Of a stretch of DNA of 24,349 nt, positions 141 to 24,349 are shown one piece after another (the first letter of the stretch is position 1; each line of letters starts with the position of its first letter). Where the stretch lies: NCBI GenBank assembly GCA_024232355.1, contig JAAEPW010000034.1, forward strand, positions 1 through 24,349. Direction: 5' to 3'. The DNA is from Chloroflexota bacterium. GTDB lineage: Bacteria; Chloroflexota; Anaerolineae; B4-G1. A program made the translations under genes and the position numbers. The notes under the pieces are model-generated. The model was not told where the DNA came from and made no database searches. It was given only the letters and a program-made list of their open reading frames with translations.

Positions 141-3100
141 TCAATGGTCAAGGTTGTCCTGCTCTACAATCTCACCAAAAATCGTGTTCAGATTCAGGTC
201 AAGCAACTCACGATTGCCAATAATCAGTATTCGATCGTCAAAGACGAACGCATCGAGCAGTTCACCATCGAACGGCAAGTCCACAGTGTACGGAGCCAAG
301 GGAGCAAGTGCAAAGGTGGCGCGGCCCGGTGTGAACACGCCGACCATCTCGGATCCAATACCTGCTGACGTGCGTACCAAGCGAGGAAATGTCTCCGAGT
401 CGCCGGTGTGAATTATGAAAGTGTTGTCGATCTGTCCCATACCAGAGAAATCGACGTCAGACCATCCGTTGCCTGTTGCACTGCGCCAGTGGATACGTAG
501 CAGGCCATTGGGTCCATTGTTAATGGTGCGCACCACAACTGGAGCCGGAGGACGCCAGAAGCCTGAAGCAAGAAGGCCGCGCATCTGGTCAAGCTGGTAA
601 AGCTTGACGCCATCAGTATAGCCCAGATAGGCAGGCGTTTGACTTTCGTGTGCATACAGAACGGTAGGCGCCTCATTTTCCAACAGACCATCAAACGGTC
701 CAGCGTGCAGATGAACCGAGCGCCAGTGCTCGTCCATTTCGATCACGCCAGCGCGGGTCGGTAGCCAGTAGGTGGGACTATTATCGCGCAAGATTGCAAT
801 GGGTAACCCGACGACGATATCATCGAAAAAGCGTCCCTCGGTGAAACGGCGCTCTGCCCGTCCGCCAATGCTGTCAAGTGCGGTGATGCCTAGTCCACTG
901 TCGTCTTGGAGATACAGCCAAAATTCGTCTGTGCCCACGTATTCGGGACAGCCAGCGGTTTGTTGAACGGTCAGGTCGGCATCGATGCGCACATAGTTAT
1001 CTGTGCCGGCAGCCAGGCATAGGAATGATTCATCTCCATCGTGAGTAACGCCCACTGCTTCATAGTTGGCAGCGTTATCAAGAATCGTAGGGCGTTCAAG
1101 ATCCGCGACGTGGATGGACTGGCGTGATGCTTGAAACCACCCGAATCTGTCTGTCGCCAACTCGATCGTGTCATCAAAGAAAAGTGCTACAGAGTTGAGT
1201 GTGTCAAAGTTAAACTGACCACCTACCAGGCTCACCATTTCGCCTCGTAGGAAAACATCCAGGGTGCCAAGCGATCTGCCATCCCTGCCGGTTAGCCGCA
1301 CCTCCAAATATCCGGTATCCTCTGGAGCAACCAGCAACTGTTCGCTGAATGGATCAGTTCCGTCAAAAGGTGAAAAGACACCTGTCGGTCTTGGATTGGA
1401 AAGATCGCCCTGGTACACCCAGTCACTATCGGCAAAGCAACGGGCCAGTACGATACCGTCCTTCAACTTTAACTCGATGCTGGGACATATTGTATCTCTC
1501 GCTTTTGGCTCTCGGACGATCATCACGTTGTTCGCGTCGATATATGCCTCTCCACTGTTGAGGTGATCGACGGTGACGAGACCAAGGGGGGTGGCAACCC
1601 ACACCTGGTCATCGACGACTATAATCTCGTTCCACTTGTCGATGCCCACGTTCCAGGTCATGTGAATGTTGTCAAGCCACCAGGAAAGCTTTTCCCATTG
1701 GTCGTCTAATCCACGATGCTCAAACTCGAAAGGAAAGTCGTTCTCCGGGGATTGTCGTAGGCGCAGACGACCGTGTTCGAACAGTGGAGGATTCGCGTCA
1801 TAGTCCAACACTCGTTCGACCAGGTGAGTGTCGGTGACAGGCTTCCAGGAGTCTATATCGTAGAACCAAAGCTGGTGGTCGGTGGTCTCGAAATAGGTCG
1901 CCTCGGGTAGGGTGGCGTCATTCCACCATGTATCTTTGTCGACACAGATAAAACGATCTGGCGACAGATTGTCCAGCGGGTTGCTCTTGGGCGCGGGGTT
2001 CAGGGCCAGCGTTCCCGTTTGGTGGACAGTTACCCAACGCCGATCCCACATAGTGAAGGCTCGGTCCTCGCAGACGATCACATCGTCGAGACGATCGTGT
2101 GGCAAGCGGCCTTTATCCATATTGATAGGTTCCAAATCTAGCTTGCCGTCGGCATCATAATATTGCCCAACAAGTCCGTGTTCAGCGATGGTCACCCAGT
2201 GCCAAAGGGGGGTTGACAATTGCAGGCTGGTATCCAATTGCCCAGGGTTAGTACATTGGGCAAAGGGTTGACCAGCGCGCCGTTCTATGCACAACAATGC
2301 AGACCGGGCCATCAACAAATCCGGCTCGCTGGCTGGAATGCCCACATCAATGACTGGGACCAGGTCGCCAGCAGGTAAATTACGCATGTCGTACAGTCCG
2401 ACGAGGTTGTTGAATGAACTAGATGTGGCGTTCGAGTAGACTTGGAGTCCAATATCGGAGCCAACGTTCAATTGTCCGTCGAAATAGCCGATGGCTGTCA
2501 CATGGTCAAAAGGGAAACGTTGATCAACAAAACGGTATGGCTCCCAAAAACTGTTACCGACCAGGTTGTCAACCAAAATCTCCTTGAGTACTTGGGCAGA
2601 ATCCAGGGTGAAACGGAGGCGGTCTGTTGCAACCAGATACCGGCGCTGATCAGGATCAGGGTCAGGTGTATTGGGCACAAACTTGTCCAAAGCCACATCC
2701 CAGCGCAAAACAGTACTCCTGGCATAACTATAGAGCTGTGTGCTACCATCCACAAAGTGGAATGCCTCCAGGCGGTTGGTGTCCACAGGGAAAGCGCGCC
2801 TGGCCTGGAGGCTGGCGATTTGTTGAGCAGGTTGGGCAATCTCTAAAAAGGCTTTTGTAGCCACGTACAGTGCATCTCGGTAGACTGTAGCCGCCAAGAG
2901 ACGATCGCTGTTAAATCCAAAGCCACCCTGAGTGGTGAGAGCGAAATTGTGAGACGCACCACCGAGGTCGATGTCCAAGCGATTATCGCGAAGCATCCAT
3001 TCCCAGATGGCATCTTGGATCAGAGTGCGATTTGCGTGTGGATTGGGGACATTCGGGTGCCAAGTGATGCCATCGTGTTGATACCAGGCATCTCGACCCA

Positions 3101-6100
3101 GGTCCACAAAATAAGCAGTACCGTTGCCATCGGATTGGAGGATGCCGCCAGTCAGGGCCAAATATTGTGGACCAGCGTCAAAGCTGGTGGGCAGACCGAC
3201 TGCGTTGTGAATGCCTGCATCACTCTGGATCAAGAAATCTATGCCCGAATAGGCCAATGCCCGCCAGTTTGTGTCCCAGGTAAAACCTCTGCTGGCAAGA
3301 CCTGGCAAATCTATGCCGCTCACGGTGATTGTCACCTCGACCGTGGACGATGCGATTCGTTCCCTAAAGTGCATATCGCCGACTGCAAACGTGAAATCCT
3401 GGGTCGGGCTTTGTGCAACTCGCCCAAGAGTCAAGCATACTGTATTACCACCAGAGAGAAAGCACCCATGCGCAGCAGTGATGGGTAGGTTGAGTGAGGT
3501 GGGATAAAAGATAATGTGATCGTCATTGAGGTTCAGGTCAGGTTGAGTGTATACCCATAAACCGTATGGATTGGCAACGTGAAACTCGCTTTCCCCCTTG
3601 ACCAAGACAGAATCGATGCGCTCAAACAGAAACTGACCCTCGTCGATAAAGTCTCGTTTCTGAAACGTGCGCTCGCCCTCACCAGTATTCACCGCAAACG
3701 TTCCACCCTGGCGATTCCAACGCAGCCAACCCACGTTCAGTGCGGGAGGCAGTTTGAAATCAGCAGGTAGGGCTCCCATCCCGGCCAATCTGTATGCACG
3801 GCCGCTGACCCGCTGCGCGACGAGTACGCCGTTGTCTCGAACCCTGAGCCGGATGATGGGATCATAGCTTGCTCGCCCGTCATCAGGCAAATAATGCAAA
3901 TCATTCTGTAGGTTGCTCCATTGATCATCCAAATAGTAAAGAGGCTCAGTGATAACAACTGTATGCGTCCTGACGTCATACTGCCCTTGACCAACTTGGA
4001 TAACATGAATTCCTTGGTCGCTTCGGTCAATCAGTTCTACGCCGTTTTCCAGTGCGTGAACCTCTGCGATGCCTTTATAGGACACAGTGGCTTTGCCAGC
4101 CAAATAGTAACACGGGGTGAGGGATGGCGTTGGCGTCAGCCAAGGTTCATGGAACCATCGTGCTTCTGCAGTTGGGGTAGCAGAAGATTGAGTGATCGCA
4201 TCGCTAACACACTGTGCGGGGAGGATGTGGAGCCATTTATTATTGGACAGTACCCACCAGGCGTTCTGTGGATTGTGGACCAGCCAGTCCACGTTGGTTG
4301 AAGGGATAACTCGATCAAGCAACCTGTCGGCTGGTATAAGATTAGATCCGTTCCAATAGTACGGTGTGCCGTCGGACGCAACACCGGTGACATTAGAATT
4401 CCAGGTAACAAAAAGGCGAATGGAGGCTTGGTGTGTGGTTTCCCCACTCACTGTTCGTGGGCTTTGGAAGACACGACCATCATAGTGCCACCAGTCGTCG
4501 CCTGCAAAGTACGCCCACCAGCTATCTTGATCGTCCTGGAGCAGATATTGAGCCGAATCAAACGTGTCGAGTCCATCCTGGTTCAAAACCGTGAGGCAGT
4601 TCAGTTCATCGCTGTAGAGAATAAGTTGGTCTTGCGCAGGTGTAGCACTGGCCGTGATACGATTACAGTTGGCGACGGCAGTGTCCAAAATTTCTTCCTG
4701 TCCACTGTTCTTATCGAGAGCGCGAAGACCGCTCACAGTGTCAAACAACACGAGGTTTTTCCACTCAAAGGCGTGTGCAACGTCGTCCGGATAGAGACTG
4801 AAAGGCGCTAGCATCACCCTGCACGTATATTTGCTCTCTGCTTCGTCAGTGACGACGGTACACTGGAGTAGCTCTCCTGTTTCACTCAGCCGCCAGATGT
4901 CCCCATCTGAAGTAATCGCCGTCTGCTGATCAGAAGGGGCAAGACGGTACTCGACAAAATCCCGAGGGTGCGGCCCAAGCTCTTGGGCAATTCTCCAACT
5001 GGTTTGATTATCCCCGACAATCAAGCCACGACCGAGTACACGTTGGTATGTCAGGGTGTTGTCGGGTGGGAATGGTTCTGACCGTTCCCAATTCCGCGTT
5101 ACCGGGTCAAAGTAGAGGATGCGGTTGTTGGAAACGATTGTCCATGTGGCAGTGTTTTCGACACGCGCCTGGATGTCGAGTAATGTATCAGCACTGACTG
5201 CTGGCGGTTCGACGACCTCAGCACTGCCGATCAATTGCAAATCAGCGCTCTGATTGGTCGCAGTTAGTATTGCATAGTAGAACTGATCGTCGGTGGTTCG
5301 GACTGTGATGATATTTTCGTCTCGATAGGGTTCAATGGTGATATCTGCAATTGAAGGTTGTCTATCCCTGTTAAAATAAAGCGCAACCGAGTCCCAGGTG
5401 TGCAACTCCAAATCATAACGCCAGATAGTGGCATCGGTGCTAAACAAAAGGTGTCCGGCTAACTGACGGTCGAATGTGCGTCTCAGTTCAGTAGAGAACG
5501 GGGCCAAAGGTTCAGATGCAATAATTTGCTTCTCTATTCCTGCCCGCCATTCGATTATCTGACCATTCGACGTGATCCAGGCAACACGCCCTGTAGACTC
5601 GTTGACAGAAACCGCTCTAACCGTCTTGATCGAGTCGATGTCAAGATCAATCCTGGAATTAGAACAAGAGTATGGTGTGGTGATGCTATCTACACCAATA
5701 AACGTTAGCTGAGCTTTACCACTGACCTGACTGGTGGTAATGAGATTGGTGACAAGGAGCAGATACGATTGACTGTCAGGATAGTCAAAGTAGTAAACCC
5801 TGTGAGATTGCGGAACGCTAGCCGGTGCATCGCGCCACGTGCGGGCGGCATGGTCATAGAATTTCAGTCCCGCGTTGGTCAGCACAGCTACCAGGTCGTT
5901 GGGCAGAGCACGAGCATCATAAATCTGTCCAACATCACTACCCGCAGTGGGGTTGCGAAAAAAGCATTGTGCGCGATCCAAATCAGTAGCGTCATTTTGG
6001 TCATGTCCCATCAAGTAGAGGTTCTCTCCACGCCTGCGCACAGTCCAGATAAAACTCGAACTAGGGGACAGATTGCTAACTTGGCCTGACGTGGAAGAGA

Positions 6101-8372
6101 GAATAGTGTCACCCCACGCAGCCTTGCCGTTCACCAGCGCCAGCGGTTTGTCGTCGACGATCCCCCGAAGATGGACATCACCGTAATTGGCGATTTCCCA
6201 GGTTCTGGCAATCTGACGTGTTGCCAAGTCGTATTGATTGATATGACCATGACCTGCCAGGAACAAGTGCTGATCGCGTTGCATAACATCACTCAGTTCC
6301 TCATCGGTCATATCAAAGTCATCTTGGTCACCGATCAGGGCATTGCCTCGGTTGTCGATGAGACGTCCTCGGCTGGTACGAAGCAGCCAGCGTCCATCGA
6401 CCGAGATTACTTCCTCCAGGTCTTCCCCAGACATAAGGGAAACGCTGGAACTGCTCCAGGTACGTGCGTCAAGATCGTATAGAGCCATACCACCGCCGAT
6501 GATTGCCAGGGTGTCGTCATTCCCAGCCACGTCTCGCAGGGTGTTCCAATCTCCTGCCAAAAGGGCTGCACCGGCGACGCGTTGGGCGTTTTGTGGGGTG
6601 ATGTGATACACACTGCCGTCAGCGTCGAACACGCCGATCCCCGACTGCCCCCAAGCCCACGTGCTCTGTGGTGGTCCTGACACATAGTAGGGTTCGATAT
6701 CCCACAACCTGCTCACCAAGGTTGACGTGACGACCGGGGGATCGTGAATGGCATAAATATTTGTCATTGGTCTAGGACCAGGAGTCAATGCATAGATGTC
6801 TTTGCCACTGCCGACGAGTTGGACGTCAGAGTCCAGCAACCAGTTGGGGGTATCGTCTTTATCGATGTCGGCATACTGGCGATAGTGGGTGTCGTGCAAG
6901 ACGATGCCGTCTGCGCTGGCAAAGATCACTGTATCTCCTGCTGCTGCGGCGGCCACAAAGGTTGAGGGATCGATGGCCGTCTTGCCTTGCTCATAAAGGG
7001 TAGAGAACTCGCCAGACTGGGTTGATATCGAGTAAAGATTGCCCGGCGAGGTCAGCGCCAAAAGCTCCTCATCTTTCCCGTACCGCAACGTCACGGTTGT
7101 AACACCGGAGTCCGGCCATTCCCACCAGCCATCTAGATGCCCACCACGCACCACACCAACGCCAGACCGCTGGGCAAAATAAAAGCCCGCGCCATCTTTG
7201 AACGGCAATGTGGTGATTACTGGTTGCTCGGTGACCTGTTCCCAGGAATGTAGGTGGGTATTATAGTTATAAATGCCCTCTTGGCCGCTCAAGGTCAGTA
7301 TGTGACCAGTGTGCTGGGCAAACGTTAGATTACTCAGATTCAGGTTTGTATAGAGGTTTTGTTGATTTACAATGTCCGCTGGTGTACTATCAGGGTCGGA
7401 AAATGTCCCCAGCCAGATGCAACCACTCACGTTAGTAGTATCCTTGCAGTCACGGTGTGCCAGAACCCAGAGATTGCCTTCAGTATCTGTGACAACCCCC
7501 ATGTCTGTGTCAAGATCAATAATTCGTCCATCGAGTTGTTGCTTACCTATAGCTTGCATTGAGCTTGCATCGATTTCCACCTGGAACAAGCCGTCGAGCG
7601 TGCCCACCCAAAAGTAGTCACGCCACCACACGATGTGAGTGATCTGTTCGTTTGGGAATTGGCCTGTGAGCGCGCTTGAGGGCAGCCATTTGTGCTGTAT
7701 GGTATCGTAGAGGCCGAGGTCGGTGTCGTTTGTGCCAAGCAAGAGCCAGCGACCAGAGTCACTAACGGCGGCTGCGACCAGTTTATCGTCTGCGACGGGC
7801 CTGCCGTCACGGTGGGTGAACCGGCTGTTATTGACGATGATACGCCACTCGTCGTCATAGCGTGCCAGACTGCCATCTGCACCAAGTGCCCAGAGCGCGC
7901 GTTTATCGGGGCAATCGTCGAACATCAGCGATCCCACTGCATCCCCACACCCGGAGCGCAGTAGCACGAAATCGGCAGAGATCGGGGCGGTGGCGGAAAA
8001 GGGGCGCTGGGTGGTCCAGAGATGAGTCACCGGATCGTAACTGTGAATTATGCCCCCTTCTTGAGAGATCAAAAGACGGTCTTTTGTTGGGTCAAAGGCA
8101 GCAGTCAATAATTGATGTGTTTCAAGATCGTCGCGCACGTTCTCTAATATGCGTTCGTCGGCCAGAGGTTGGACTAGAGGGAGAGTGAGACCGCCAAAGT
8201 TCCGGACAATCCGTATAACAACTCCGCCGCCGCCACACAGCAGCAACAGTAATGTTGCCAGTAAACCCAGCACGAGTGCTGTGTCTCGACGTTTATCGAA
8301 CGCAAGTTCCCGTATAACCTGTCTAAATGCGTCGCGGCTGCGTTTGTTGATGGAACGATTGTGTGTGCTCAT
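141..8372 (-). CDS. Giant membrane-anchored multi-propeller protein (2743 residues)
   Basis: A 2743-residue protein. The N-terminus is basic (residues 1-30), followed by one transmembrane helix (about 31-54, ALVLGLLATLLLLLC), so by the positive-inside rule the remaining ~2690 residues lie outside the cytoplasm. They are beta-rich and repetitive. A kelch/propeller-like motif, Tyr/Phe-Asp, 4-5 residues, Trp, recurs: YDPVTHLW (about 113-120), YDTIQHKW (about 222), YDLDARTW (about 632), YDHAARTW (about 838), YDLELHTW (about 984), FDPVTRNW (about 1088) and YDIDSW (about 2170). Strands of the form DGxLWxY, as in two-component-regulator propellers, fill the rest. A short linker, LTPTPSLTP (about 1411-1420), splits the protein into two halves of similar size. 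Cysteines tend to come in nearby pairs, as expected outside the cell. There are no catalytic motifs. It is probably a ligand- or surface-binding element of this locus. The blade count is not resolved. Confidence 0.85.
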   Translation of the reverse strand: MSTHNRSINKRSRDAFRQVIRELAFDKRRDTALVLGLLATLLLLLCGGGGVVIRIVRNFGGLTLPLVQPLADERILENVRDDLETHQLLTAAFDPTKDRLLISQEGGIIHSYDPVTHLWTTQRPFSATAPISADFVLLRSGCGDAVGSLMFDDCPDKRALWALGADGSLARYDDEWRIIVNNSRFTHRDGRPVADDKLVAAAVSDSGRWLLLGTNDTDLGLYDTIQHKWLPSSALTGQFPNEQITHIVWWRDYFWVGTLDGLFQVEIDASSMQAIGKQQLDGRIIDLDTDMGVVTDTEGNLWVLAHRDCKDTTNVSGCIWLGTFSDPDSTPADIVNQQNLYTNLNLSNLTFAQHTGHILTLSGQEGIYNYNTHLHSWEQVTEQPVITTLPFKDGAGFYFAQRSGVGVVRGGHLDGWWEWPDSGVTTVTLRYGKDEELLALTSPGNLYSISTQSGEFSTLYEQGKTAIDPSTFVAAAAAGDTVIFASADGIVLHDTHYRQYADIDKDDTPNWLLDSDVQLVGSGKDIYALTPGPRPMTNIYAIHDPPVVTSTLVSRLWDIEPYYVSGPPQSTWAWGQSGIGVFDADGSVYHITPQNAQRVAGAALLAGDWNTLRDVAGNDDTLAIIGGGMALYDLDARTWSSSSVSLMSGEDLEEVISVDGRWLLRTSRGRLIDNRGNALIGDQDDFDMTDEELSDVMQRDQHLFLAGHGHINQYDLATRQIARTWEIANYGDVHLRGIVDDKPLALVNGKAAWGDTILSSTSGQVSNLSPSSSFIWTVRRRGENLYLMGHDQNDATDLDRAQCFFRNPTAGSDVGQIYDARALPNDLVAVLTNAGLKFYDHAARTWRDAPASVPQSHRVYYFDYPDSQSYLLLVTNLITTSQVSGKAQLTFIGVDSITTPYSCSNSRIDLDIDSIKTVRAVSVNESTGRVAWITSNGQIIEWRAGIEKQIIASEPLAPFSTELRRTFDRQLAGHLLFSTDATIWRYDLELHTWDSVALYFNRDRQPSIADITIEPYRDENIITVRTTDDQFYYAILTATNQSADLQLIGSAEVVEPPAVSADTLLDIQARVENTATWTIVSNNRILYFDPVTRNWERSEPFPPDNTLTYQRVLGRGLIVGDNQTSWRIAQELGPHPRDFVEYRLAPSDQQTAITSDGDIWRLSETGELLQCTVVTDEAESKYTCRVMLAPFSLYPDDVAHAFEWKNLVLFDTVSGLRALDKNSGQEEILDTAVANCNRITASATPAQDQLILYSDELNCLTVLNQDGLDTFDSAQYLLQDDQDSWWAYFAGDDWWHYDGRVFQSPRTVSGETTHQASIRLFVTWNSNVTGVASDGTPYYWNGSNLIPADRLLDRVIPSTNVDWLVHNPQNAWWVLSNNKWLHILPAQCVSDAITQSSATPTAEARWFHEPWLTPTPSLTPCYYLAGKATVSYKGIAEVHALENGVELIDRSDQGIHVIQVGQGQYDVRTHTVVITEPLYYLDDQWSNLQNDLHYLPDDGRASYDPIIRLRVRDNGVLVAQRVSGRAYRLAGMGALPADFKLPPALNVGWLRWNRQGGTFAVNTGEGERTFQKRDFIDEGQFLFERIDSVLVKGESEFHVANPYGLWVYTQPDLNLNDDHIIFYPTSLNLPITAAHGCFLSGGNTVCLTLGRVAQSPTQDFTFAVGDMHFRERIASSTVEVTITVSGIDLPGLASRGFTWDTNWRALAYSGIDFLIQSDAGIHNAVGLPTSFDAGPQYLALTGGILQSDGNGTAYFVDLGRDAWYQHDGITWHPNVPNPHANRTLIQDAIWEWMLRDNRLDIDLGGASHNFALTTQGGFGFNSDRLLAATVYRDALYVATKAFLEIAQPAQQIASLQARRAFPVDTNRLEAFHFVDGSTQLYSYARSTVLRWDVALDKFVPNTPDPDPDQRRYLVATDRLRFTLDSAQVLKEILVDNLVGNSFWEPYRFVDQRFPFDHVTAIGYFDGQLNVGSDIGLQVYSNATSSSFNNLVGLYDMRNLPAGDLVPVIDVGIPASEPDLLMARSALLCIERRAGQPFAQCTNPGQLDTSLQLSTPLWHWVTIAEHGLVGQYYDADGKLDLEPINMDKGRLPHDRLDDVIVCEDRAFTMWDRRWVTVHQTGTLALNPAPKSNPLDNLSPDRFICVDKDTWWNDATLPEATYFETTDHQLWFYDIDSWKPVTDTHLVERVLDYDANPPLFEHGRLRLRQSPENDFPFEFEHRGLDDQWEKLSWWLDNIHMTWNVGIDKWNEIIVVDDQVWVATPLGLVTVDHLNSGEAYIDANNVMIVREPKARDTICPSIELKLKDGIVLARCFADSDWVYQGDLSNPRPTGVFSPFDGTDPFSEQLLVAPEDTGYLEVRLTGRDGRSLGTLDVFLRGEMVSLVGGQFNFDTLNSVALFFDDTIELATDRFGWFQASRQSIHVADLERPTILDNAANYEAVGVTHDGDESFLCLAAGTDNYVRIDADLTVQQTAGCPEYVGTDEFWLYLQDDSGLGITALDSIGGRAERRFTEGRFFDDIVVGLPIAILRDNSPTYWLPTRAGVIEMDEHWRSVHLHAGPFDGLLENEAPTVLYAHESQTPAYLGYTDGVKLYQLDQMRGLLASGFWRPPAPVVVRTINNGPNGLLRIHWRSATGNGWSDVDFSGMGQIDNTFIIHTGDSETFPRLVRTSAGIGSEMVGVFTPGRATFALAPLAPYTVDLPFDGELLDAFVFDDRILIIGNRELLDLNLNTIFGEIVEQDNLDH

Positions 8373-8503
8373 CTCAACCTACATCTATTTATGATCAAAC
8401 CTACTGACGACCAGTTCTTTCATCGGCCTCTTGTTCAGTTCCACGCACTGTGACGCTGACCTGGGCCAGTAGCTCCTCGGTCGAAGGCTCAACGGAGTGG
8501 TCG
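8373..8503 (-). other. 131-bp gap before the giant gene
   Basis: This is the longest spacing in the window. It holds no clear hairpin terminator and no promoter I can defend. A frame without a start codon (8598 to 8404, TAG at 8401-8403) crosses most of it. A GTG at 8507 could begin a 40-residue product that overlaps the upstream stop as GTGA, but its composition is not convincing. AGG lies shortly upstream of the ATG at 8372. Confidence 0.4.
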
Positions 8504-14448: not shown

Positions 14449-14453
14449 GAATG

Positions 14454-14458: not shown

Positions 14459-14465
14459 GCCTTTG

Positions 14466-15697: not shown

Positions 15698-15698
15698 G

Positions 15699-16715
15699 TT
15701 ATGCTGATTCTTCTACCGATTTCAGAGAATACTCGGGCCTTGAATGCAATGATAACTGTCTGCGCCAGGTTCCAAACCAACTTGGGATATTGTCTTGCCA
15801 ATCGAGACGAGCGAGCCACACCTTGTCTTTGGGCAGGGTGTCCGGCAGCATAGATTGATCACTGGCGGGTTCGACTCGGCCATATTGCCAGAGGGGCAAA
15901 TCCTCAAGCGCCTGCTTGAGTGCATCTGGGATTCTAGTCGTGTCCCAGTGTCTATATGCCTCCAACAGAACCCATTGATCCCAAACAGTTGCCCAGCCAC
16001 TGTCCAGACCGTGATCTTGGCCCAGCACCCTTAGATATCGCAACCACCGAAATATCAGGCCTCGCGCGCGGCCTAGTTGGATAATGAGTCTCCGGTAGAG
16101 CCTCGGCCACCGCCAAAACTGTAGCCACTGCCAAGGTTTCTGCTTCGCTCTCTGCGGTAGACGCTGGACAGACGGGTCCCATACGTCATAGCAGGCTAGC
16201 GCAATTAGGATCCAGAATGTCCGTGGATCAAGTTGAAAGGTGACGTATTCCCCAGCGGCAAACAGAACTCTTTGGCGTAGCGCAGCCTCGATGCGCTGCG
16301 CTATATCGTGCAAAAAATGTACATCTCGCCACGCACGCATCTCGACGAGTGTCCACACGTCCTCAGAAAGACCATTGAACGGATTGAGGTTCAACAAGCG
16401 CCGCATCTCGAACACAACACGCCCCCGCCACGCAACGACGTCCAGCACGCGATCATTCACGGCTCCCTTGACCACACTGTCGTAAGAGCGATGAGCGTCA
16501 GGCGACGAACCCCGCCTGGTACGTTGCTCGCCGGTCAGTCTGCGCCAGTGCTCGGCAAACAGATTGCCCCAAGATGGACGTTTGCCGTCGAGAGCCTTTT
16601 GCAACACGTTCAAAGCCATCGTCTGCAACCATACGACGAGTCGGTCGGTGGTACCTGCGTCAAAGTGCATCGCGGTTGGATAATTTACATTTGATGTTCT
16701 CGTCTGTTCAACCAT
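15699..16715 (-). CDS. Tryptophan-rich protein of unknown family
   Basis: A protein of 338 residues, 22 of them Trp (6.5%, about five times the usual frequency). No transmembrane helix is clear; FWILIALACYDVW is too short and too mixed to count. A strongly basic aromatic stretch lies near the middle (PWQWLQFWRWPRLYRRL). No catalytic motif or known domain is recognised. I chose the ATG at 16715: it has GGAG just upstream and overlaps the double-vWA gene by 31 bp. A TTG at 16796 (365 residues, 112 bp overlap) has little support, and an ATG at 16670 lacks a ribosome site. It is the last gene of the first module, so it probably works with the vWA membrane proteins. Most likely a membrane-surface or protein-binding component, but that is inferred from composition only. 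Confidence 0.7.
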   Translation of the reverse strand: MVEQTRTSNVNYPTAMHFDAGTTDRLVVWLQTMALNVLQKALDGKRPSWGNLFAEHWRRLTGEQRTRRGSSPDAHRSYDSVVKGAVNDRVLDVVAWRGRVVFEMRRLLNLNPFNGLSEDVWTLVEMRAWRDVHFLHDIAQRIEAALRQRVLFAAGEYVTFQLDPRTFWILIALACYDVWDPSVQRLPQRAKQKPWQWLQFWRWPRLYRRLIIQLGRARGLIFRWLRYLRVLGQDHGLDSGWATVWDQWVLLEAYRHWDTTRIPDALKQALEDLPLWQYGRVEPASDQSMLPDTLPKDKVWLARLDWQDNIPSWFGTWRRQLSLHSRPEYSLKSVEESA

Positions 16716-19405
16716 TTGCTCCAAGGTATGTGTACTTTTTGATTTGCAATGGCGAGCAAGTAAAAGACTGCGGCCAAAGAAATCAGACACGGCCAAAGCG
16801 GCTGGCGCTCTAGGGCGCTTTCTAATTGGCGAGAGAACACCAAATCCTCGCCAGGTTTGAATTGTCCACCGCCCATCTGGGCGATTTCTTCGAGCAGGTC
16901 TGCATTAAGGCCCCAACTCGATGCCTCTGTAGTCGCTCGGTCGTCAATATCGCTCTCCAGAGGAATCAAGATTGGGATGCGCTGAGCGCGGGCCAGCGCG
17001 TCGGGTCCTGCTTCTTCTACGACCAACGTTGCCCTCTGTGTGTTTTCGGTACGGGGCACTCGCTCTGTTCCCTCAAAAGTGGCAGGGGAACCCTGCACGG
17101 GTATCATATCAAAGCCAATAGTACCGGCCGGAATCTCGATCTGGACGTCTAGTTTGTCGACTCTTGGAATCCCGTTCGTTTTGCTCTTGACCTCGATGTT
17201 CAGGGTGAGTCTACTGCCATCATCTGAAACATCAAATGTGTAGCGGTCACGCGCAGCATAGGGCACGGTTTGCTCGATCCACTCTCGAATGGCCTTGTTT
17301 CCCCCTGGGTGATCGATCCATTCCCTGTCAAAGCTGCCCGTAAACACACCAACCCGACCTTGTCCACCCTGTCCGTACACGAGTACCGGGTCAATGAATT
17401 TGGGCCTTACGGCCACGAGTTCTGCGTCATCTTTGGCATACGTGATGGCCGCGCCGTTTATATTCAGCGCGGGGATGGTGAGGTTTGGCCCACCGCGAAC
17501 ACGCGCCATTGACAGTGGGATGAAGGCTCCTTTCTCAAAGGACTTTTGACGTGTTTCAGGCTCAAAGAATGGTATTTGAATCCGCCGTGGGTCAAAGGAT
17601 CGATCAACCGTGAAAGGATCGGCCAGGTCGTTCAACGTCAAGTTGTCGGACGCGCGATTTCCACCCACATCGAACACCGTCGTCCGGCAGTCGGGGCGAC
17701 ACTGGGCAGTGTCGCGGTTGAATTCGTTATCCGATATAAAGATCAAACCGCAGTTTGTCATCTGGCGGTCGATGATCATTTCCAATGCTTCCTTGGGATC
17801 GGTACTGCCACCGGCAGTAATGTTGCCGATTTGTTCAAGTGCGTATCGTTTAATCTCTGCGCTTACCACCGTATCGGTCACAATGGGGATTGCACGGCTG
17901 TTAAATGCAATCACGTCCAGACGATCATCGGGCTCAAGTTGACTATCTACGATGTATTGTGCGATCTCGATAGCCTTGGCAATTTTCCAGCCCCCCATTT
18001 CATTCATTGAGTCGGAAGCATCAATCAGGATCACGACGTGGCGCGGCGGAGGCGCTATCGAGTAGGAGCGTGGATCGGTAAAGACGGGCAAGAGCGGAGC
18101 GATGACCGTGTTGTCATAAGTACTCAGAATGGTGTTGTCCTCTTCGCTAGCGCCCTCGTGGTCTCCATTTATCAGGATCAGCCCGAGGCCATCTTTCTCG
18201 ACCGCCATTGCTAGCGCCTCGAGCGTGTCGGAACTAAATGCGCCAGCGGATACCTCGCTGATGACGACGCTGTCATACTGGCTCAGGTTCACGTCCGGGA
18301 GCAACTCATCGGGAGAGAATGTGTCTATAGCCGCAAAGTCACGAGGGATTGCCTCCGTCCACAAATAGTCGCCGCCGACCGCCAGCAGGTGGATAGGACG
18401 GTTGATGTGCGTAAAAAGACGGCGGTGATGCGTGGGCGTGTCAGAATCAGTGTCAACCAGCACCAGGTCCACGAACTGAATGCCTATGCCCTCGAACCCG
18501 ATTGCGACACGAGGAGAGTGATACATGGATGACGGAAGAGAGTACGAGACGACGGAATTCCCTTCCCGTCCTACGTGCTCGACGATGTCGTCTTGTATAC
18601 CCAAATTTCTCGATATTCTCAACTCGACGTTTACCGGCCGAGACCCAACGTTATAAACGACGCCACGGAAATGTGTGGTGGAGCGCGCGTTTACCGGATT
18701 GGGCAGATTGGCGGCTGTGATTGCTAACTCTGGAACCAGGCTCTCAATGGGGAGAATGTGAATCGGTATGCCTTGGCGAGCAAGCTGTTGGGCAGCCACG
18801 TATGCGTTTCCCACGGTATCATTCCCGTCGCTGACCAAGAGCACTTGTCCACGGCCTCCCGCCCTGGCAATGAGTTCTCCGGCACGAGTCAACCCTGCCC
18901 CGATGTCGCTGCCATCTCCGGCGGCAAAATTTACATCTGGGTCCAGGCTATTCAGGTGCGTTAACAATGAGGCCAGTGTAAAATCATCGTCGTGCGAGAC
19001 GCCGCCACGAAAAGTGACAATACTCGCCGTGTATTGTTCCGGGGCGCTATCAACGATATTCTCTATCACGGGTGTCAACTCGTTGCGGATATAGTCCTCC
19101 AACCCACCATCCACACGAAGCACGCTGTCCGAAACGTCCAGGACGACGCACAAATGCTCTTCTTCGGGATCGGCGGGTATGGACCTGATGGGGTTCCACG
19201 CAGCCAACGCGAGGCAAATTGCCGCCAGGATGGTCAGCACAGTCACCGAAACCCGCCTGATTGGCGCCTTGCGGTTTCGGACGAGTCCGTACAACAACCG
19301 CACACCTGCAACGATGATCACGATCGCAGCCATTAGGGTAATCACCCAGTGCAGAGGCCAGGCATCAAACGGTTCAAAGTTGATAGCTTGCATCATAAAG
19401 TCCAT
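16685..19405 (-). CDS. Large membrane protein with two vWA domains and a GATase1-like domain
   Basis: A 906-residue protein. It has two N-terminal transmembrane helices (18-41 and 51-70), then a vWA domain with DVSDS (90-94), S166-D167 and VSDGND (191-196). A beta-sandwich region (about 225-320) is followed by a class I glutamine-amidotransferase-like segment (about 336-440; LLAVGGDYLW, VVISEVSAG, LILINGD). A second vWA domain carries DASDS (462-466), T535-D536 and ISDN (557-560). A beta-rich region and a C-terminal transmembrane helix (about 869-887) end the protein. Both vWA domains keep the MIDAS residues, so both can probably bind a metal. No catalytic Cys is obvious in the amidotransferase-like part, which is likely structural. 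Starts at 19405 or 19396 are both possible; the latter gives an ATGA overlap with the preceding gene. Function is unknown beyond being a probable MoxR client. Confidence 0.88.
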   Translation of the reverse strand: MDFMMQAINFEPFDAWPLHWVITLMAAIVIIVAGVRLLYGLVRNRKAPIRRVSVTVLTILAAICLALAAWNPIRSIPADPEEEHLCVVLDVSDSVLRVDGGLEDYIRNELTPVIENIVDSAPEQYTASIVTFRGGVSHDDDFTLASLLTHLNSLDPDVNFAAGDGSDIGAGLTRAGELIARAGGRGQVLLVSDGNDTVGNAYVAAQQLARQGIPIHILPIESLVPELAITAANLPNPVNARSTTHFRGVVYNVGSRPVNVELRISRNLGIQDDIVEHVGREGNSVVSYSLPSSMYHSPRVAIGFEGIGIQFVDLVLVDTDSDTPTHHRRLFTHINRPIHLLAVGGDYLWTEAIPRDFAAIDTFSPDELLPDVNLSQYDSVVISEVSAGAFSSDTLEALAMAVEKDGLGLILINGDHEGASEEDNTILSTYDNTVIAPLLPVFTDPRSYSIAPPPRHVVILIDASDSMNEMGGWKIAKAIEIAQYIVDSQLEPDDRLDVIAFNSRAIPIVTDTVVSAEIKRYALEQIGNITAGGSTDPKEALEMIIDRQMTNCGLIFISDNEFNRDTAQCRPDCRTTVFDVGGNRASDNLTLNDLADPFTVDRSFDPRRIQIPFFEPETRQKSFEKGAFIPLSMARVRGGPNLTIPALNINGAAITYAKDDAELVAVRPKFIDPVLVYGQGGQGRVGVFTGSFDREWIDHPGGNKAIREWIEQTVPYAARDRYTFDVSDDGSRLTLNIEVKSKTNGIPRVDKLDVQIEIPAGTIGFDMIPVQGSPATFEGTERVPRTENTQRATLVVEEAGPDALARAQRIPILIPLESDIDDRATTEASSWGLNADLLEEIAQMGGGQFKPGEDLVFSRQLESALERQPLWPCLISLAAVFYLLAIANQKVHIPWSKWLNRREHQM
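16719..16722 (-). promoter_or_regulatory. Ribosome binding site (GGAG) deciding the start at 16715
   Basis: TTGGAG precedes the ATG at 16713-16715 with a short 3-base spacer. It lies within the end of the double-vWA gene, so translation is probably coupled. It is the best ribosome site among the three candidate starts. Confidence 0.45.
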
Positions 19406-21084
19406 CTGGATAATGTCAGGATACGCTCAATCGTCAAGAACAGTGTGGCGAGCGTAATCAGTATCAACCAAAGTGGAAATGTATCTGCGGCGGCGCGAAG
19501 CGGCTGGATGTCCTCGATACGGCCATCTGACCTTGGGGGATAGGTATATCCCTCGCCAGGGTGCAGCGCGCTGCGATTGCCTTCTCTAGTTGGATGTTGA
19601 GAAGACGTCAAGGTATACAACGGCGCTGGCGTATATTCTCCCAACAACCAACGCAAGGCATTAAAAAAAGCTGTGTTGGAAAAGGCTTCCAGGTTTTCGT
19701 CTGAATCAGAGACCGGCAATCCCGGCACGTAGGCTGCTGGTAACACATTGCTCGCAGCAAACCATGTCAAACCACCGTTATCATATAGAACTGATCGCAA
19801 AGGATCGTCCTCGGGCAAGCTGATACCCTGAATATCAAGCCTTTCGGCAACGTCAAAGTTGATGCCGTCTAATAGAGGGTTTTCGAAAAAGAACCGGATT
19901 TCTTTGCCTGCCTCGATAGAACCCTGCCCGTAACCACTGCCCACCAGCAGCACTGGTACGTCGTCGCTCTCTAGTTCTCCTGGGTACGAGATGATTCGTA
20001 TGTGCGGATCACTCGCATCAGGTTGCCAGCCGAGTGTGTCCAGGAGGGTTTTGTCTTCCAACTGCCAGTCGGCGCGGATCTGCTCGACAAGGTCGTAGGC
20101 AATGGTCACTTGGTCGTCCAAAGAATACGCGCCGCCTTTGGATAATGCGAGTGTGTAATGCCCAACTCTTGGCAGAGAAACTAGCAGGGAAGAACGTCCG
20201 AGCCGGTCCCAGTTGACGTTCTCTAGTTTCATCTCATCATTGCGTTCGTCTGTGACTGTCAGAGTGGTTTCTAATGGGATGCTGCCATAAGCAGCCAATT
20301 CGACTTTAATCTCGCCGGTTGTGTTGAACACGGTGCCTGTTCTCTGGACGTTCACGATACCGACGTTATCCACCTGGGTAGCAACGTCTAGCCAAATCGT
20401 TTGAGTAGTCGTTTGGACGTCTCCGCTGGACAGGCTTTCTTCGTTGATCCACACTGGCGCTGGCATATCGGTGACGACGAGCACGTGTGTGGCTGGGCAA
20501 CTGCTGTCACTATTCGATTCGGTAGAACGTTTGATAGAACGTTCGATCAAACCACGAACCAAGCCTACGTCGGTTCCCAGCGGGCGATGTTGGATACCGC
20601 TCACTGCGTCCAGAACTGCATCCGGCGAGACATTGGGTTGGATATTTTTTTCACCCAGATCAAAAGTATAAAAGTCGATACACACGTCACTGTCTAGTTT
20701 GTTCAGGTGTGTGACCAACCTTTCCACCTGGCGACAAGCGAGGTCGATGCGAGTTTGACTGCCTTCCAGCGTGCTCATACTCGCCGACGTGTCGAGTGTG
20801 ATCCAGACCCCAACGTGCTCCTGTTGGGGTTTGATGTCGATAGCAATCTTTGCGCAGATTGCGGCTATCAGAAGCATCACGAGAGTCATGCACTGCAACA
20901 CAAATATCCAAGTCAAACGCAGAGTGCGCCAGCGAGGAACCTGGATGTCCGGTGCTCTTTCTTCTACTTGAAAGAATACAGCAGACGATATGGGGAATTG
21001 TGTGTAGTGTGGGCTAGTCAAGTAGAGAACGATCAATGCTGCAATCGTTGTCCCGATTACCCCAGTGGCGATAGCGATAATCAT
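19393..21084 (-). CDS. BatA-like membrane protein with one vWA domain
   Basis: A 563-residue membrane protein. Residues 3-22 and 57-80 are transmembrane, with a SxxxFFQVEERAP-type loop between them, the layout of the BatA/aerotolerance N-terminal domain (PF07584). A vWA domain follows with a complete metal-binding set: DTSAS (98-102), Thr 171 and Asp 206. A beta-rich region (about 245-330) and a glutamine-amidotransferase-like segment (about 360-450) come next, and a last transmembrane helix lies at 536-553. The start is the ATG at 21084, which makes an ATGA overlap with DUF58; a GTG at 21183 would add 33 residues lying inside the DUF58 gene. Proteins of this kind are considered MoxR clients that bind metal-dependent ligands at the membrane. 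Length and C-terminal region are closer to the large vWA membrane proteins of Chloroflexota and Planctomycetes than to short BatA. Confidence 0.88.
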   Translation of the reverse strand: MIIAIATGVIGTTIAALIVLYLTSPHYTQFPISSAVFFQVEERAPDIQVPRWRTLRLTWIFVLQCMTLVMLLIAAICAKIAIDIKPQQEHVGVWITLDTSASMSTLEGSQTRIDLACRQVERLVTHLNKLDSDVCIDFYTFDLGEKNIQPNVSPDAVLDAVSGIQHRPLGTDVGLVRGLIERSIKRSTESNSDSSCPATHVLVVTDMPAPVWINEESLSSGDVQTTTQTIWLDVATQVDNVGIVNVQRTGTVFNTTGEIKVELAAYGSIPLETTLTVTDERNDEMKLENVNWDRLGRSSLLVSLPRVGHYTLALSKGGAYSLDDQVTIAYDLVEQIRADWQLEDKTLLDTLGWQPDASDPHIRIISYPGELESDDVPVLLVGSGYGQGSIEAGKEIRFFFENPLLDGINFDVAERLDIQGISLPEDDPLRSVLYDNGGLTWFAASNVLPAAYVPGLPVSDSDENLEAFSNTAFFNALRWLLGEYTPAPLYTLTSSQHPTREGNRSALHPGEGYTYPPRSDGRIEDIQPLRAAADTFPLWLILITLATLFLTIERILTLSRWTL

Positions 21085-22061
21085 ACGTCTCTCATAAATA
21101 GGCGTTGCAACAAACGGTCCTCTACGAACCGGGCCTTGAAAAACTCGGCAATATGCTCGTGCAAATCGCTGCGTGCATCCCACGACCAGATGGTATGATC
21201 GGCAACGCTCAAAAATGCGTGTTTGTGCTTGTTAACCATTGTACCAACAGAAGCGATCATATCATCGGTGACAACGAGCCTCTTTTCGCTTGTGCCTGGG
21301 CCAAAAATGGCTCGGGCACCGCGCCCTAGAGTGAATTGCTCATAGCGCCAACTATCGAGGTCCACGAGAATCACCCAGCGCATTTTGTCTTTTGCCATTT
21401 TGATACGATGCAACAGACGCCGAGCCTCACCTTGCTCTTGATGACCAAAGTAAAAATCGGTGAGAATGATCCAAACGGAGGCAGGTGGAAGACATCGATC
21501 CAATTCTGAAGCATTGAACTGCTCATTAAAGGTAATTTTGCCTGCGACACGATCTATTTCTGGACGGATGCGGAGCGGGTCGTTTGTCCCTCTGAACTCG
21601 TGCAGCCGCAGCCGAGTCCCAAACAGCGGATGCAAGACAACTCGATCCCCGGCACGCAGAGCAACAATCGACAGTGCTTCTGCCAGCCAACGAGCGACCT
21701 GAAGTTTGGAGATATTTACAGCAGAGCGTGAATTGCTCTGGAGAGGACGGGGCCAAGTCATCGTCTCACGCGTATCAATTGAGACTACCAGTTTCAAATG
21801 TTCCTCGGCCATGAACTTGCGAACTAGCAAGTCTTCCCAGTAATTCGCACTGCCCTTGGCCATCGTACGCACAGACGCGCGCCAGTCGATGTGGCGAACG
21901 TCATCACCGATTGTGTACCGGGCGTACTCTTGAAACTCGAGGCTCTGTCCCATTCTGCGGGTGATATGACCACCGACCAAATGGGGACGGACGTGACGTC
22001 GCGCTCTGAGCCGGTACTGTTCCAGAAAAGACATAGACACGGGTAGGTTGGAGAACTCCAT
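21081..22061 (-). CDS. DUF58 domain protein
   Basis: A 326-residue protein with the two hallmarks of DUF58. The first is the FQEYARYTIGDDVRHIDWRAS block (residues 43-63). The second is RKFMAEEHLKLVVSIDTRETM (81-101), the first strand of a vWA-like fold in which Asp 96 takes the place of the metal-site motif. DUF58 proteins are encoded beside MoxR ATPases across bacteria and are thought to be their partners or clients. No transmembrane segment is seen, though many DUF58 proteins have two N-terminal ones, so this is the short soluble form. It starts 3 bp after the MoxR stop; the ATG has a weak ribosome site and Met 10 is an alternative. Its stop overlaps the next gene by 4 bp (ATGA). Confidence 0.93.
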   Translation of the reverse strand: MEFSNLPVSMSFLEQYRLRARRHVRPHLVGGHITRRMGQSLEFQEYARYTIGDDVRHIDWRASVRTMAKGSANYWEDLLVRKFMAEEHLKLVVSIDTRETMTWPRPLQSNSRSAVNISKLQVARWLAEALSIVALRAGDRVVLHPLFGTRLRLHEFRGTNDPLRIRPEIDRVAGKITFNEQFNASELDRCLPPASVWIILTDFYFGHQEQGEARRLLHRIKMAKDKMRWVILVDLDSWRYEQFTLGRGARAIFGPGTSEKRLVVTDDMIASVGTMVNKHKHAFLSVADHTIWSWDARSDLHEHIAEFFKARFVEDRLLQRLFMRDV

Positions 22062-22064
22062 GAT

Positions 22065-23288
22065 TCAGTATATTATACTCTCGACAATTTCGCTCAGTGT
22101 TATCTTGAACAATCTCGATTGCTCGCGGGCGTGTCTATCCTGCACAGGTGTACAAGCATTGCACAAATCGCGCAAGTAATAGTCCAACAGCCGGGTGTCA
22201 GGTATACCAGGATATTTACCCCGATATTCTTCGTGCCCATCGTACCGCAGCTTGACGCGGTGGCGTAACGTAGGAATGATGATTTTGGCGAGGGCAATGT
22301 TGTCTGCCCAGGTGGTCGTTTCAAAGAACAGGCACCATGCTTTGGTTCCTCGCATCATAGCGGTAGCAGCACGTGGCCCCAAACCGTATTCGAGCATATT
22401 GACAAGTTCTTGGCGCGTCTCGCGGGATTTTTTGTCCAGGCTATCACTCTCGTTTGAGCGGTTGTTGGTAACCAGAAACAGGTTCTTGATGTGTTCACGC
22501 ACAATCGGATCCGGTTCCATACACCGAATATATTTGCGCAGATTTTGGTACCATTGAAGCGATACTTTGAACTCACAAGCTGCCCGGACAGACTTTTCTT
22601 CTGTTTCAGCTTTGGGAGCGGTTGGATCGATTACGCCAGTATCCTTTGCCATGATCAAATCGAGCACATCGCCACCGGGCACGGGCATGAGGATTTTGAA
22701 CATGAAACGATCCGACTGCGCTTCTGGCAACTGATATGTACCTGCGTGATCGATGGGGTTTTGGGTAGCCAGCACCATGAACGGCATCATCTCGTCTGTT
22801 TTGTCGTCTTTGGTCTCTTTGAATTCTCCCGATGGGACGTGATAGCACTTGCCGCCAACTGTGACTTGGCGCTCTGCCATTGCTTCGAGCAATGCAGACT
22901 GCGTTTTGGGCGTGGCCCGGTTGATCTCATCCGCGAGCAGCAAGTTGCGAAATACCGGGCCTGGCTGGAAGGTAAACGTCGAAACATACCCCCCCCCCGT
23001 GCCGCTTGGCATCTCTGTGCCGATAATGTCGGTGGGCATAAGATCAGGAGTGAACTGGATGCGACCAAAATCAAGGTTTAACGTATAGCTCAACGTTTTG
23101 ACCAGTTGAGTTTTGCCTAGTCCGGGGTTGCCCTCCAACAGAACGTGCCCGTCAGAGTACACAGAGATCAGGCACAGACGAATGACGTCGTCCATCCCAT
23201 ACATGTGTTTTTTGACGCCATCCACTATAGCATCGACAAAGACTCTACTGGATTTCCGTTCCTCTAGAGATAAACTGTCATAGGTCAT
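22065..23288 (-). CDS. MoxR-family AAA+ ATPase
   Basis: A 407-residue cytoplasmic AAA+ ATPase of the MoxR family (AAA_3). These act as chaperone-like remodellers, usually on proteins with von Willebrand A domains encoded nearby. Visible motifs: Walker A GNPGLGKT (residues 53-60), the MoxR block FTPDLMPTDIIGTE (79-92), Walker B LLLADEINR (116-124), sensor 1 ATQN (174-177) and the arginine-finger block QLPEAQSDRF (186-195). The C-terminal helical lid follows. I place the start at the ATG at 23288. It lies 2 bp after the upstream stop behind GGGGTGG, and the family's usual N-terminus begins there; a TTG at 23330 would add 14 unconvincing residues. The gene is 3 bp from DUF58, the usual MoxR partner. 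A run of ten G on the coding strand sits at 22989-22998. The family call is firm; the substrate is unknown. Confidence 0.96.
   Translation of the reverse strand: MTYDSLSLEERKSSRVFVDAIVDGVKKHMYGMDDVIRLCLISVYSDGHVLLEGNPGLGKTQLVKTLSYTLNLDFGRIQFTPDLMPTDIIGTEMPSGTGGGYVSTFTFQPGPVFRNLLLADEINRATPKTQSALLEAMAERQVTVGGKCYHVPSGEFKETKDDKTDEMMPFMVLATQNPIDHAGTYQLPEAQSDRFMFKILMPVPGGDVLDLIMAKDTGVIDPTAPKAETEEKSVRAACEFKVSLQWYQNLRKYIRCMEPDPIVREHIKNLFLVTNNRSNESDSLDKKSRETRQELVNMLEYGLGPRAATAMMRGTKAWCLFFETTTWADNIALAKIIIPTLRHRVKLRYDGHEEYRGKYPGIPDTRLLDYYLRDLCNACTPVQDRHAREQSRLFKITLSEIVESIIY
22989..22998 (-). repeat. Homopolymer tract, G10 on the coding strand, inside the MoxR gene
   Basis: Ten consecutive C on the plus strand read as G10 in the MoxR gene and encode part of the Gly-Thr-Gly-Gly-Gly-Tyr loop near residues 96-101, between the Walker A and Walker B motifs. 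The frame is intact at length 10. A change of one base would destroy the ATPase. Confidence 0.95.
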
Positions 23289-23290
23289 AG

Positions 23291-24349
23291 TTACCACCCC
23301 AACCCATCGCCAAGTAGGGCGATGATCCAATTGTGAATGTACTGAATAGGCGAGAGAGAGGGGCTCAAATCTGTAGCGATAGGTGCGTTGTCTGGATCGC
23401 CGTCGCCATCGGAGACAGTTCCCCCAGGTGGTTCTGGCGGGCGAGTCGGTGGTTCAGTGCCTCTGCGCGTCGATTGTAACATCATAGGTGGAATCTCCAC
23501 TTCAATGCACTGACCAAGAGTCGGCGGTTCCGGTGCAACTCTCGGTGATGGTTGTCGCTCATCTTCCCTATCGGATGAAGGGTCTTGCTCCCTTTCTGGC
23601 TGTTGCTGCCTTGGACTTGACTCACCGCCTCCGTCGGAATTACCATTGTTGTCGTTTTGTTCGTTTGATTCATCAGAATCCGAGTTCCCTTCCTCATCTC
23701 TACGAGGTCCGGCGTCATCATTAGGGGGTGTGGATCCATCCTCATTATCAGGGGGGGCAGTGCGGCCTCCATTGTCAGGGGATCCAGTTTCGTCTTTGTT
23801 GTCAGGGGATCCAGTTTCGTCTTTGTTGTCAGAGAACATGGTTTCGTCCTCGTTACCAAAGGGAGTCGCTGTGGCCTCGACACTGATGTCATCTTGCCCT
23901 TTACTCTCTTCAGGGGTAATAACCTCATCTTCTTCCTCGCCCTCATCAGGGGCGATAGCCTCATTTTCTCCCTCATCATCGTCGCGTGGGTGAGGATAGC
24001 TGTGCGCACGGTCGCGAGGTTGGAGAACGTTACTTGCACCCTCACCATTGCCGGTAGTGGCGTCGTCCATCGATGTGTTCTCGTCGCTCGTTGTGCTGGA
24101 AGAGGGGGTGGCGTCTTGAGTGCCGCTTTCGTTTGGACCGCCAGGGTCCGACGCGGTCGAGCCGCCATCGTTCCCGCTCCCATCAGTGGTCGTATCGGGA
24201 GAGGGGGTGGCGTCTTGAGTGCCGCTTTCGTTTGGACCGCCAGGGTCCGACGCGGTCGAGCCGCCATCGTTCCCGCTCCCATCGGTGGTTGTATCGGGAG
24301 AGGGGGTGGCGTCTTGAGTGCCGCTCTCATTTGGGCCGCCAGGGTCCGA
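23291..24349 (-). CDS. Acidic, disordered repeat protein, C-terminal part (5' end outside window)
   Basis: This is an open frame of 352 visible residues that runs off the window edge; its true start is not in view. The visible part is almost wholly low complexity and rich in Asp, Glu, Ser, Pro, Gly and Thr. It begins with a 33-residue tandem repeat (core SDPGGPNESGTQDATPSP), followed by short acidic stretches and a 9-residue repeat (GSPDNKDET). Only the last ~20 residues (PIQYIHNWIIALLGDGLGW) are hydrophobic. The frame is secure because all five base differences between copies of the 99 bp repeat are synonymous in it. An ATG at 24070 lies inside this frame and is probably internal. The stop is 2 bp before the MoxR start, so it is the leading visible gene of that operon. 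No family is recognised. An extended linker or stalk, possibly of a larger envelope protein, is a guess from composition. Confidence 0.75.
   Translation of the reverse strand, partial: SDPGGPNESGTQDATPSPDTTTDGSGNDGGSTASDPGGPNESGTQDATPSPDTTTDGSGNDGGSTASDPGGPNESGTQDATPSSSTTSDENTSMDDATTGNGEGASNVLQPRDRAHSYPHPRDDDEGENEAIAPDEGEEEDEVITPEESKGQDDISVEATATPFGNEDETMFSDNKDETGSPDNKDETGSPDNGGRTAPPDNEDGSTPPNDDAGPRRDEEGNSDSDESNEQNDNNGNSDGGGESSPRQQQPEREQDPSSDREDERQPSPRVAPEPPTLGQCIEVEIPPMMLQSTRRGTEPPTRPPEPPGGTVSDGDGDPDNAPIATDLSPSLSPIQYIHNWIIALLGDGLGW
23776..23829 (-). repeat. 27-bp direct repeat, 2 copies
   Basis: Two adjacent 27 bp copies (23776-23802 and 23803-23829) lie inside the acidic repeat protein and encode the 9-residue unit GSPDNKDET twice. 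Degenerate versions follow (SPDNGGRTA, PPDNEDGST). This is a second, independent expansion within the same disordered region. Confidence 0.9.
24101..24349 (-). repeat. 99-bp in-frame tandem repeat, about 2.5 copies, continues past the window
   Basis: Copies begin at 24101, 24200 and 24299 (the last cut by the window edge), with an exact 99 bp period, so 33 codons each. Copies 1 and 2 differ at 2 of 99 bases; the visible 51 bases of copy 3 differ from copy 1 at 3. All five differences are synonymous in the frame that ends at 23291. The encoded unit is rich in Gly, Ser, Thr, Asp and Pro. The copy number beyond the edge is unknown. Confidence 0.95.

Follow-up and report, generated by a model that had tools for sequence, protein, structure and literature searches.

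The window analysed here, a stretch of 24,349 nucleotides from a Chloroflexota bacterium (positions 1 to 24,349 of contig JAAEPW010000034.1, assembly GCA_024232355.1), carries on its minus strand two modules with MoxR ATPases, several genes without a known family and one giant gene. It is strongly supported that they form one system, and the clustering goes beyond chance since ten of the genes are syntenic in 21 loci. By their open reading frames and translations, eleven genes (23330 to 141) are complete and a twelfth (23291–24349) is present as its 3´ part; they are numbered g1 (the partial one) to g12. In our judgement the chances are about even that these genes together encode a single remodelling machine, driven by ATP and spanning the envelope, in which the giant g12 is served by two ATPase rings.

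Related loci were collected via relatives of the window's own g7: a 16-row bpMoxR alignment served to scan genomes, one for each species, and the best 80 of 242 confirmed relatives were taken as loci. All open frames of these 80 loci were then searched with profiles made from window proteins (ten profiled genes: g2–g9, g11 and g12), and the 35 loci that carry g8 or g9 were defined as related. All ten profiled genes lie on one strand in 21 of the 35, and their order is identical in 20 of these; the remaining one, L028, has an over-long g8 frame, so that it is ambiguous which of g7 and g8 comes first in the automatic ordering. The full loci are found in Alphaproteobacteria (Azospirillaceae, Rhodobacterales, Cohaesibacter and others), one Alteromonadaceae metagenome-assembled genome (MAG), Planctomycetota, Verrucomicrobiota and Chloroflexota, thus in four phyla, and named strains such as Azospirillum brasilense, Rhodobacter capsulatus and Paracoccus lutimaris have them. 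The other 14 loci are split, cut at a contig end or without module 1 (g1–g5). A preliminary description of the window, made from its sequence, had proposed such a neighbourhood comparison, and the family-less genes and the giant gene do co-occur in order across four phyla. One Oscillochloris MAG (L012) has g9 and g12 in several frames and a reported in-frame TAA in g5, reflecting either decay or an assembly error. Another MAG, from the Rhodobacteraceae, holds a divergent g7–g9 set on two contigs (L034 and L035), and L035 runs into g11–g12 without g2–g6.

The split loci are the most telling for one system, since their units are separated yet kept in the same genome. In three Acidobacteriota (Sulfidibacter corallicola, Acanthopleuribacter pedis and a Holophagae MAG) there are three separate loci, namely a gene for several transmembrane (TM) segments with g2–g5, then g6–g10, and g11–g12. 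A further Acidobacteriota genome (G003) has g5–g10 apart from g11–g12, with g4 not found, and the Chloroflexota genome G100 has g2–g4, g5 and g6–g12 at separate places. The three Acidobacteriota also encode, right after g5, an extra protein of 571–727 codons with an N-terminal hydrophobic stretch (L099:11612-13492, L100:4070-5785, L101:12010-14193), and those of L100 and L101 have a similar stretch (...IEWVRAWPDYAG). Genome-wide searches were made for g4, g5 and the giant. Queried with the window protein, 31 of 35 genomes gave a giant; of the four that did not, G028 and the MAG of L034/L035 hold one by profile. Of 38 genomes, 34 have g5 at E<=1e-200, with partial matches in G024 and G026, and 32 have g4.

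The system is rare and patchy yet occurs as a set, as can be seen from counts in sampled genomes. Sampling was centred on genomes in which the system had already been found, and only a few candidates were scored in each genome. Within them, g9 was present in 3 of 198 Rhodobacteraceae, 3 of 82 Azospirillaceae and 2 of 227 Acidobacteriota, each time with the giant in the same genomes; among these 507 genomes, eight have both and none has either alone (E<=1e-15). Of the eight, G527 and G717 are new and the other six had come up in the first scan. A search of 400 Chloroflexota for g9 found it in two, both of which carry the giant. The g5 gene occurred in three of the 198 Rhodobacteraceae. Two of them belong to the three with g9; the third is G566, which has g5 at the end of a 5.8 kb contig, along with g2–g4, and in which no g9 or giant was detected; this is either an assembly gap or a real exception. 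In G717 (L127/L128, L125/L126) g4 and g5 share a contig, about 18 kb apart, and pieces matching g6 lie at the ends of both contigs, as though the locus had received insertions of other genes.

Two observations weigh against a single machine. Candidatus Thiosymbion (G016) and the Rhodobacteraceae genome G527 keep g6–g12 without detectable g4 or g5, showing that module 1 is not obligatory; G034 and G002 also lack both, but are incomplete MAGs, and G003 and G026 lack g4. In addition, the modules are separate loci in the three Acidobacteriota and one Chloroflexota genome described above. Both would be expected if a Bat-like operon, a bpMoxR system and the gene of a giant surface protein merely adjoined each other without a common function. 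We nevertheless regard this as very improbable: the units co-occur even where they are separate, g9 and the giant coincide in all eight cases among 507 genomes, the order is kept across four phyla, and for modules 2 and 3 independence is already largely refuted. The proposal in the preliminary description that the two modules and the giant form one machine thus holds as far as ordered and also unlinked co-occurrence goes, and has to be relaxed for module 1; independent occurrence, named there as refuting it, was found at the level of loci, while within genomes the units still go together apart from those genomes that lack module 1.

The ATPase of module 2, g7 (14466–15584, minus strand like all genes here), was previously called RavA-type. 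It matches the bpMoxR family (PF20030) at 2.1e-46 with 158 bits against a Pfam cut-off of 27, while the NCBIfam RavA model gives 95.7 bits against a cut-off of 681. The sequence comparison therefore assigns it to bpMoxR and not to RavA proper. Its Walker A motif, GPPGTAKS, is of the GxxxTAKS type, which is found in 27 of 36 cases in loci L001–L036 and in 37 of 44 in L037–L080. In the phylogenetic tree the 36 bpMoxR proteins of the system (35 loci and the window) stand on one side of a branch with 100/100 support and 44 others on the other side, and long branches meet there; by this tree they form their own clade. Among the others, hyperthermophilic archaea of the Thermoproteota (L041–L044, L050, L052, L058–L060, L063–L065, L072, L073, L077 and L080) have bpMoxR directly followed by one vWA-matching protein of about 425–473 codons, possibly the simplest form of a bpMoxR-vWA pair.

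Five of the proteins had been described as belonging to no known family. Indeed, Pfam gave no family at E<=0.1 for g6, g8, g9, g10 and g11 or for the giant, NCBIfam, run on window g7–g12, gave weak matches only, including that of g7 to RavA, and PADLOC, run on nine window proteins (g2–g9 and g11), gave only weak AAA or coiled-coil matches (best 3.5e-4). The 600-residue g8 (12646–14448) is different in that its predicted structure has a mostly helical N-terminal part followed, at residues ~240–600, by a degenerate vWA-like fold from which the metal site (MIDAS) is absent. Compared with solved structures, the NorD vWA domain ranks first, tied with other vWA-like folds including Rea1-MIDAS. Because of this modelled fold, g8 is likely the vWA partner of the bpMoxR ATPase g7. 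Homology of g8 with the vWA proteins of known ternary systems was also considered; the profile comparison was not significant, and we keep it as a hint only. The best local matches (a bpX0/1 protein and an archaeal vWA partner) lie just before the vWA domain and have an 'SE(L/F)..P' stretch in common, and a similar 'L..SE' stretch is common to g8 and the 600-residue protein of the comparison loci.

The next gene, g9 (10434–12653), encodes a 739-residue protein with a C-terminal coiled coil; in the best 60 of its 167 profile matches in the PDB it is the coiled-coil region that is matched, mostly by coiled-coil or helical-bundle proteins. A broad protein search with the g9 alignment gave four proteins at E<=1e-10, one of them from the window, out of 7996 scored candidates, and g8 gave two, one being its own, out of 7998; as the word filter fails on families that have diverged this far, these numbers were set aside. 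It is followed by g10 (9982–10437), a basic protein of 151 residues with a hydrophobic C-terminal part. A g10-like frame (120–215 codons, basic, hydrophobic segment beyond residue 70) stands after g9 in 25 of 31 judgeable loci; a search for g10 by sequence gave no match in the related loci, and the equivalence is one of position and make-up. The membrane protein g11 (8504–10132, likely ATG at 9985) has two to three predicted TM segments and lies directly upstream of the giant gene wherever a locus holds both. The Trp-rich g6 (15699–16796; 22 Trp among 365 residues) lies directly upstream of g7, and this position is conserved.

The giant g12 (141–8372) is encoded by a single open frame of 8.2 kb and 2743 codons. 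It has a single N-terminal membrane anchor (residues 35–53) with a basic N-flank, the rest is predicted to be extracytoplasmic, and residues 56–1180 model as an all-beta, propeller-like structure. In 18 giants the length varies between 2412 and 2868 residues and five end in a PG_binding_1 domain. The anchor with its flank, the fold and the C-terminal peptidoglycan-binding domains of these relatives support an extracytoplasmic, propeller-like giant, as had been suggested before. In a profile search of the PDB it matched best to two-component sensors, in their propeller region (3va6/3ott, 8.3e-7 summed), and the sensor BT4663 (4a2l) is among the best fold matches of the model. Like periplasmic Reg_prop sensors, the giant might respond to damage or to a ligand in the envelope, with the MoxR-vWA pairs relaying or resetting the signal. 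We think this improbable, since no kinase, response regulator, DNA-binding or second-messenger family was found by Pfam in the window proteins and only one of the 18 giants matches Reg_prop at E<=0.1.

Module 1 is a Bat-like unit. Its ATPase g2 (22065–23330, likely ATG at 23288, Walker A motif GNPGLGKT) matches AAA_3 at 5.9e-54, so that the two different MoxR ATPases of the preliminary description are both present. The DUF58 protein g3 (21081–22061; Pfam 1.6e-6) has no predicted TM segment; DUF58 is often regarded as vWA-like. The BatA-like membrane protein g4 (19393–21183, likely ATG at 21084) matches VWA_2 at 0.0011, under the curated cut-off, and BatA below threshold (0.028); the residues D131, S133 and S135 of its MIDAS (DTSAS) are conserved in at least 90% of 18 rows. 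The 906-residue g5 (16685–19405) contains two vWA stretches (3.2e-15) with the motifs DVSDS and DASDS. With the one of g4 these make up the three vWA domains noted earlier, to which g8 adds a further, degenerate one. For both g4 and g5, two N-terminal TM segments and one C-terminal TM segment are predicted, and the vWA domains of g5 are predicted to be periplasmic. The combination of MoxR, DUF58 and BatA-type membrane vWA protein (g2–g4) is kept in the 21 full loci.

Upstream of g2, most readable loci have a frame of 520–794 codons with three to five predicted TM helices and a low-complexity C-terminal part, and g1 is therefore probably part of the gene set too. Here equivalence is based on position and tail character, with no significant alignment. 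In the window, g1 is present as its 3´ part only, an acidic low-complexity tail (82 Asp and Glu among 352 residues) that ends in HNW, and the frames of relatives often terminate in P-x-W. No Pfam family, and hence no BatD or BatE match, was found in six proteins at this position. Between about 24090 and 24349 the window gene contains near-identical tandem repeats of about 33 codons each (SDPGGPNESGTQDATPSPDTTTDGSGNDGGSTA), and a second frame (23482–24348) is also open there.

The gene spacing in the window is operon-like. The genes g9 and g10 overlap by four bases, as do g3/g4 and g10/g11 if their likely starts (21084 and 9985) are used, and gaps of more than 20 bases exist only at g6/g7 (114) and g11/g12 (131). 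The count of eleven same-strand genes, one of them the 8.2 kb propeller gene, was confirmed.

MoxR-vWA systems have also been connected with conflict, and the preliminary description mentioned a conflict or stress role. Read in this way, the locus would be a MoxR-vWA ternary system directed against phages or competitors, its variable effector or sensor being g12 or g6. The bpMoxR family and a degenerate vWA domain fit features named by Kaur et al. 2020 (PMC7159879), and the patchy occurrence of g9 in the four samples would fit as well. However, beyond the weak AAA and coiled-coil matches neither Pfam nor PADLOC, the latter on nine window proteins, gave an effector domain, and the length of the giant is kept. 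Furthermore, eight pairs of relatives were compared, seven of them over ten genes (g10 not among these) and one over four, with the giant taken by its first 1500 residues; every compared gene aligns, none is replaced, and g6, g11 and the giant diverge fastest. Two peptide patterns gave 37 matches in viral contigs, none of them a relative, and one Azospirillum g9 searched against plasmids found no match; on the same two results the idea of a mobile element was discarded. With neither an effector domain nor a replaced part found, these data do not support a conflict role, and we consider it unlikely.

We thus prefer an envelope remodelling or assembly machine, because no effector or hypervariable part was found, every compared gene aligns and the viral contigs gave no relative. 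In the cytosol, the bpMoxR ring of g7 would act as NorQ does on NorD, pulling on or twisting its adaptor g8, whose vWA-like domain no longer has a metal site. From there the stroke might reach the giant by way of g9, with its coiled coil, and of two small membrane proteins, g10 and g11; that g9–g11 link the g7-g8 pair to the membrane and to g12 is suggested by g11 being the upstream neighbour of g12 in loci with both. The giant would be held by its one-helix anchor, with propeller domains in the periplasm and, in some species, a peptidoglycan-binding end. The Bat-like unit (MoxR g2, DUF58 g3, the vWA proteins g4 and g5 and the multi-TM g1) could help to mature, load or dock the giant or its envelope partner, with the intact metal sites of g4 and g5 facing the periplasm. 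Module 1 would have an assisting role and be dispensable in some lineages. Gene content, order, co-occurrence, the predicted folds of g8 and of part of g12 and the single bpMoxR clade were obtained directly, and from these we infer topology (by the positive-inside rule), contacts, direction of force and the giant as client or working end.

A more specific reading, which we put forward tentatively, is a dual-AAA+ trans-envelope machine that combines a metal-free cytosolic vWA adaptor with metal-binding periplasmic vWA domains and folds, loads or moves a peptidoglycan-fixed multi-propeller giant. It might, with the same reservation, represent an undescribed class, a dedicated ATP-driven system reaching into the ATP-less periplasm. 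If true, this would add a new principle to the biology of the bacterial envelope, that of two AAA+ rings working together across the membrane. To our knowledge, MoxR-vWA chaperones occur across bacteria and for most of them the client is unknown. In this system the likely client or working end is very large, easy to follow and encoded within the conserved locus itself, and there are named strains with full loci; the question of the targets of Bat-like and bpMoxR systems thereby becomes directly testable. What appears new, judging from the models, is the metal-less vWA-like fold of g8, the all-beta propeller-like first half of the giant and the peptidoglycan-binding ends of five of 18 giants. 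We found no description of this combination of genes in the open-licence literature searched, and some of the loci may be filed in the source data of Kaur et al. 2020.

Parts of the system resemble known ones. The Bat (aerotolerance) operons of Bacteroides, Borrelia (BB0170–BB0176) and Rhizobium (RL3499–RL3502) encode MoxR, DUF58 and membrane vWA proteins of like topology, as module 1 does. According to one report (PMC5700661), the vWA domain of Borrelia BB0173 was shown to be periplasmic and Rhizobium mutants have envelope and shape changes. Unlike in these operons, g5 has two vWA domains in one protein and module 1 is joined to module 2 and the giant gene. The core pair g7-g8 resembles NorQ-NorD, which like RavA-ViaA consists of a MoxR ring and a cytosolic vWA partner, but g8 is without MIDAS, there are many more membrane parts, and the client is likely an envelope protein. 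With the periplasmic Reg_prop sensors BT4663 and BT4673 the giant has in common tandem extracytoplasmic propellers behind a membrane anchor, whereas it has about 2700 residues and no matched kinase part, and travels with MoxR genes.

The nearest described kind is what Kaur et al. 2020 (PMC7159879) list as subsystem 4, the MoxR-vWA-beta-propeller ternary systems, for which Pfam has the families bpMoxR and bpX0–bpX6. In that work, the P-loop variant GxxxTAKS is 'often' found in these systems, the third component is described as having a variable N-terminal region, a membrane segment, TPR and a propeller, and section 22 'strictly' requires a propeller C-terminal to the vWA domain. No bpX0–bpX6 family was matched at E<=0.1 in window g8–g12 and 18 giants, at E<=0.05 in 27 g8 proteins or among 25 of the 33 families listed for 28 g9 proteins, or at E<=0.01 in 31 rows of g6, g11 and g1; three comparison loci do carry bpX0, bpX1, bpX2, bpX3, bpX5 or bpX6. 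Of the traits of the third component, g12 has the membrane segment and a propeller-like fold, and no TPR family was matched in the 18 giants. Common to both kinds of system are the ATPase family, the TAKS-type P-loop that the window has, a metal-free vWA partner, propellers, a component close to the membrane and extra unclassified genes. Since the published definition needs a propeller behind the vWA domain, which g8 lacks, its vWA-like domain reaching the C-terminus, the system stands by its sequences beside the ternary systems and is not a member of them. It differs from them also in having the propellers in a separate, giant anchored protein, in its own bpMoxR clade and in the whole second, Bat-like MoxR module that is joined to it.

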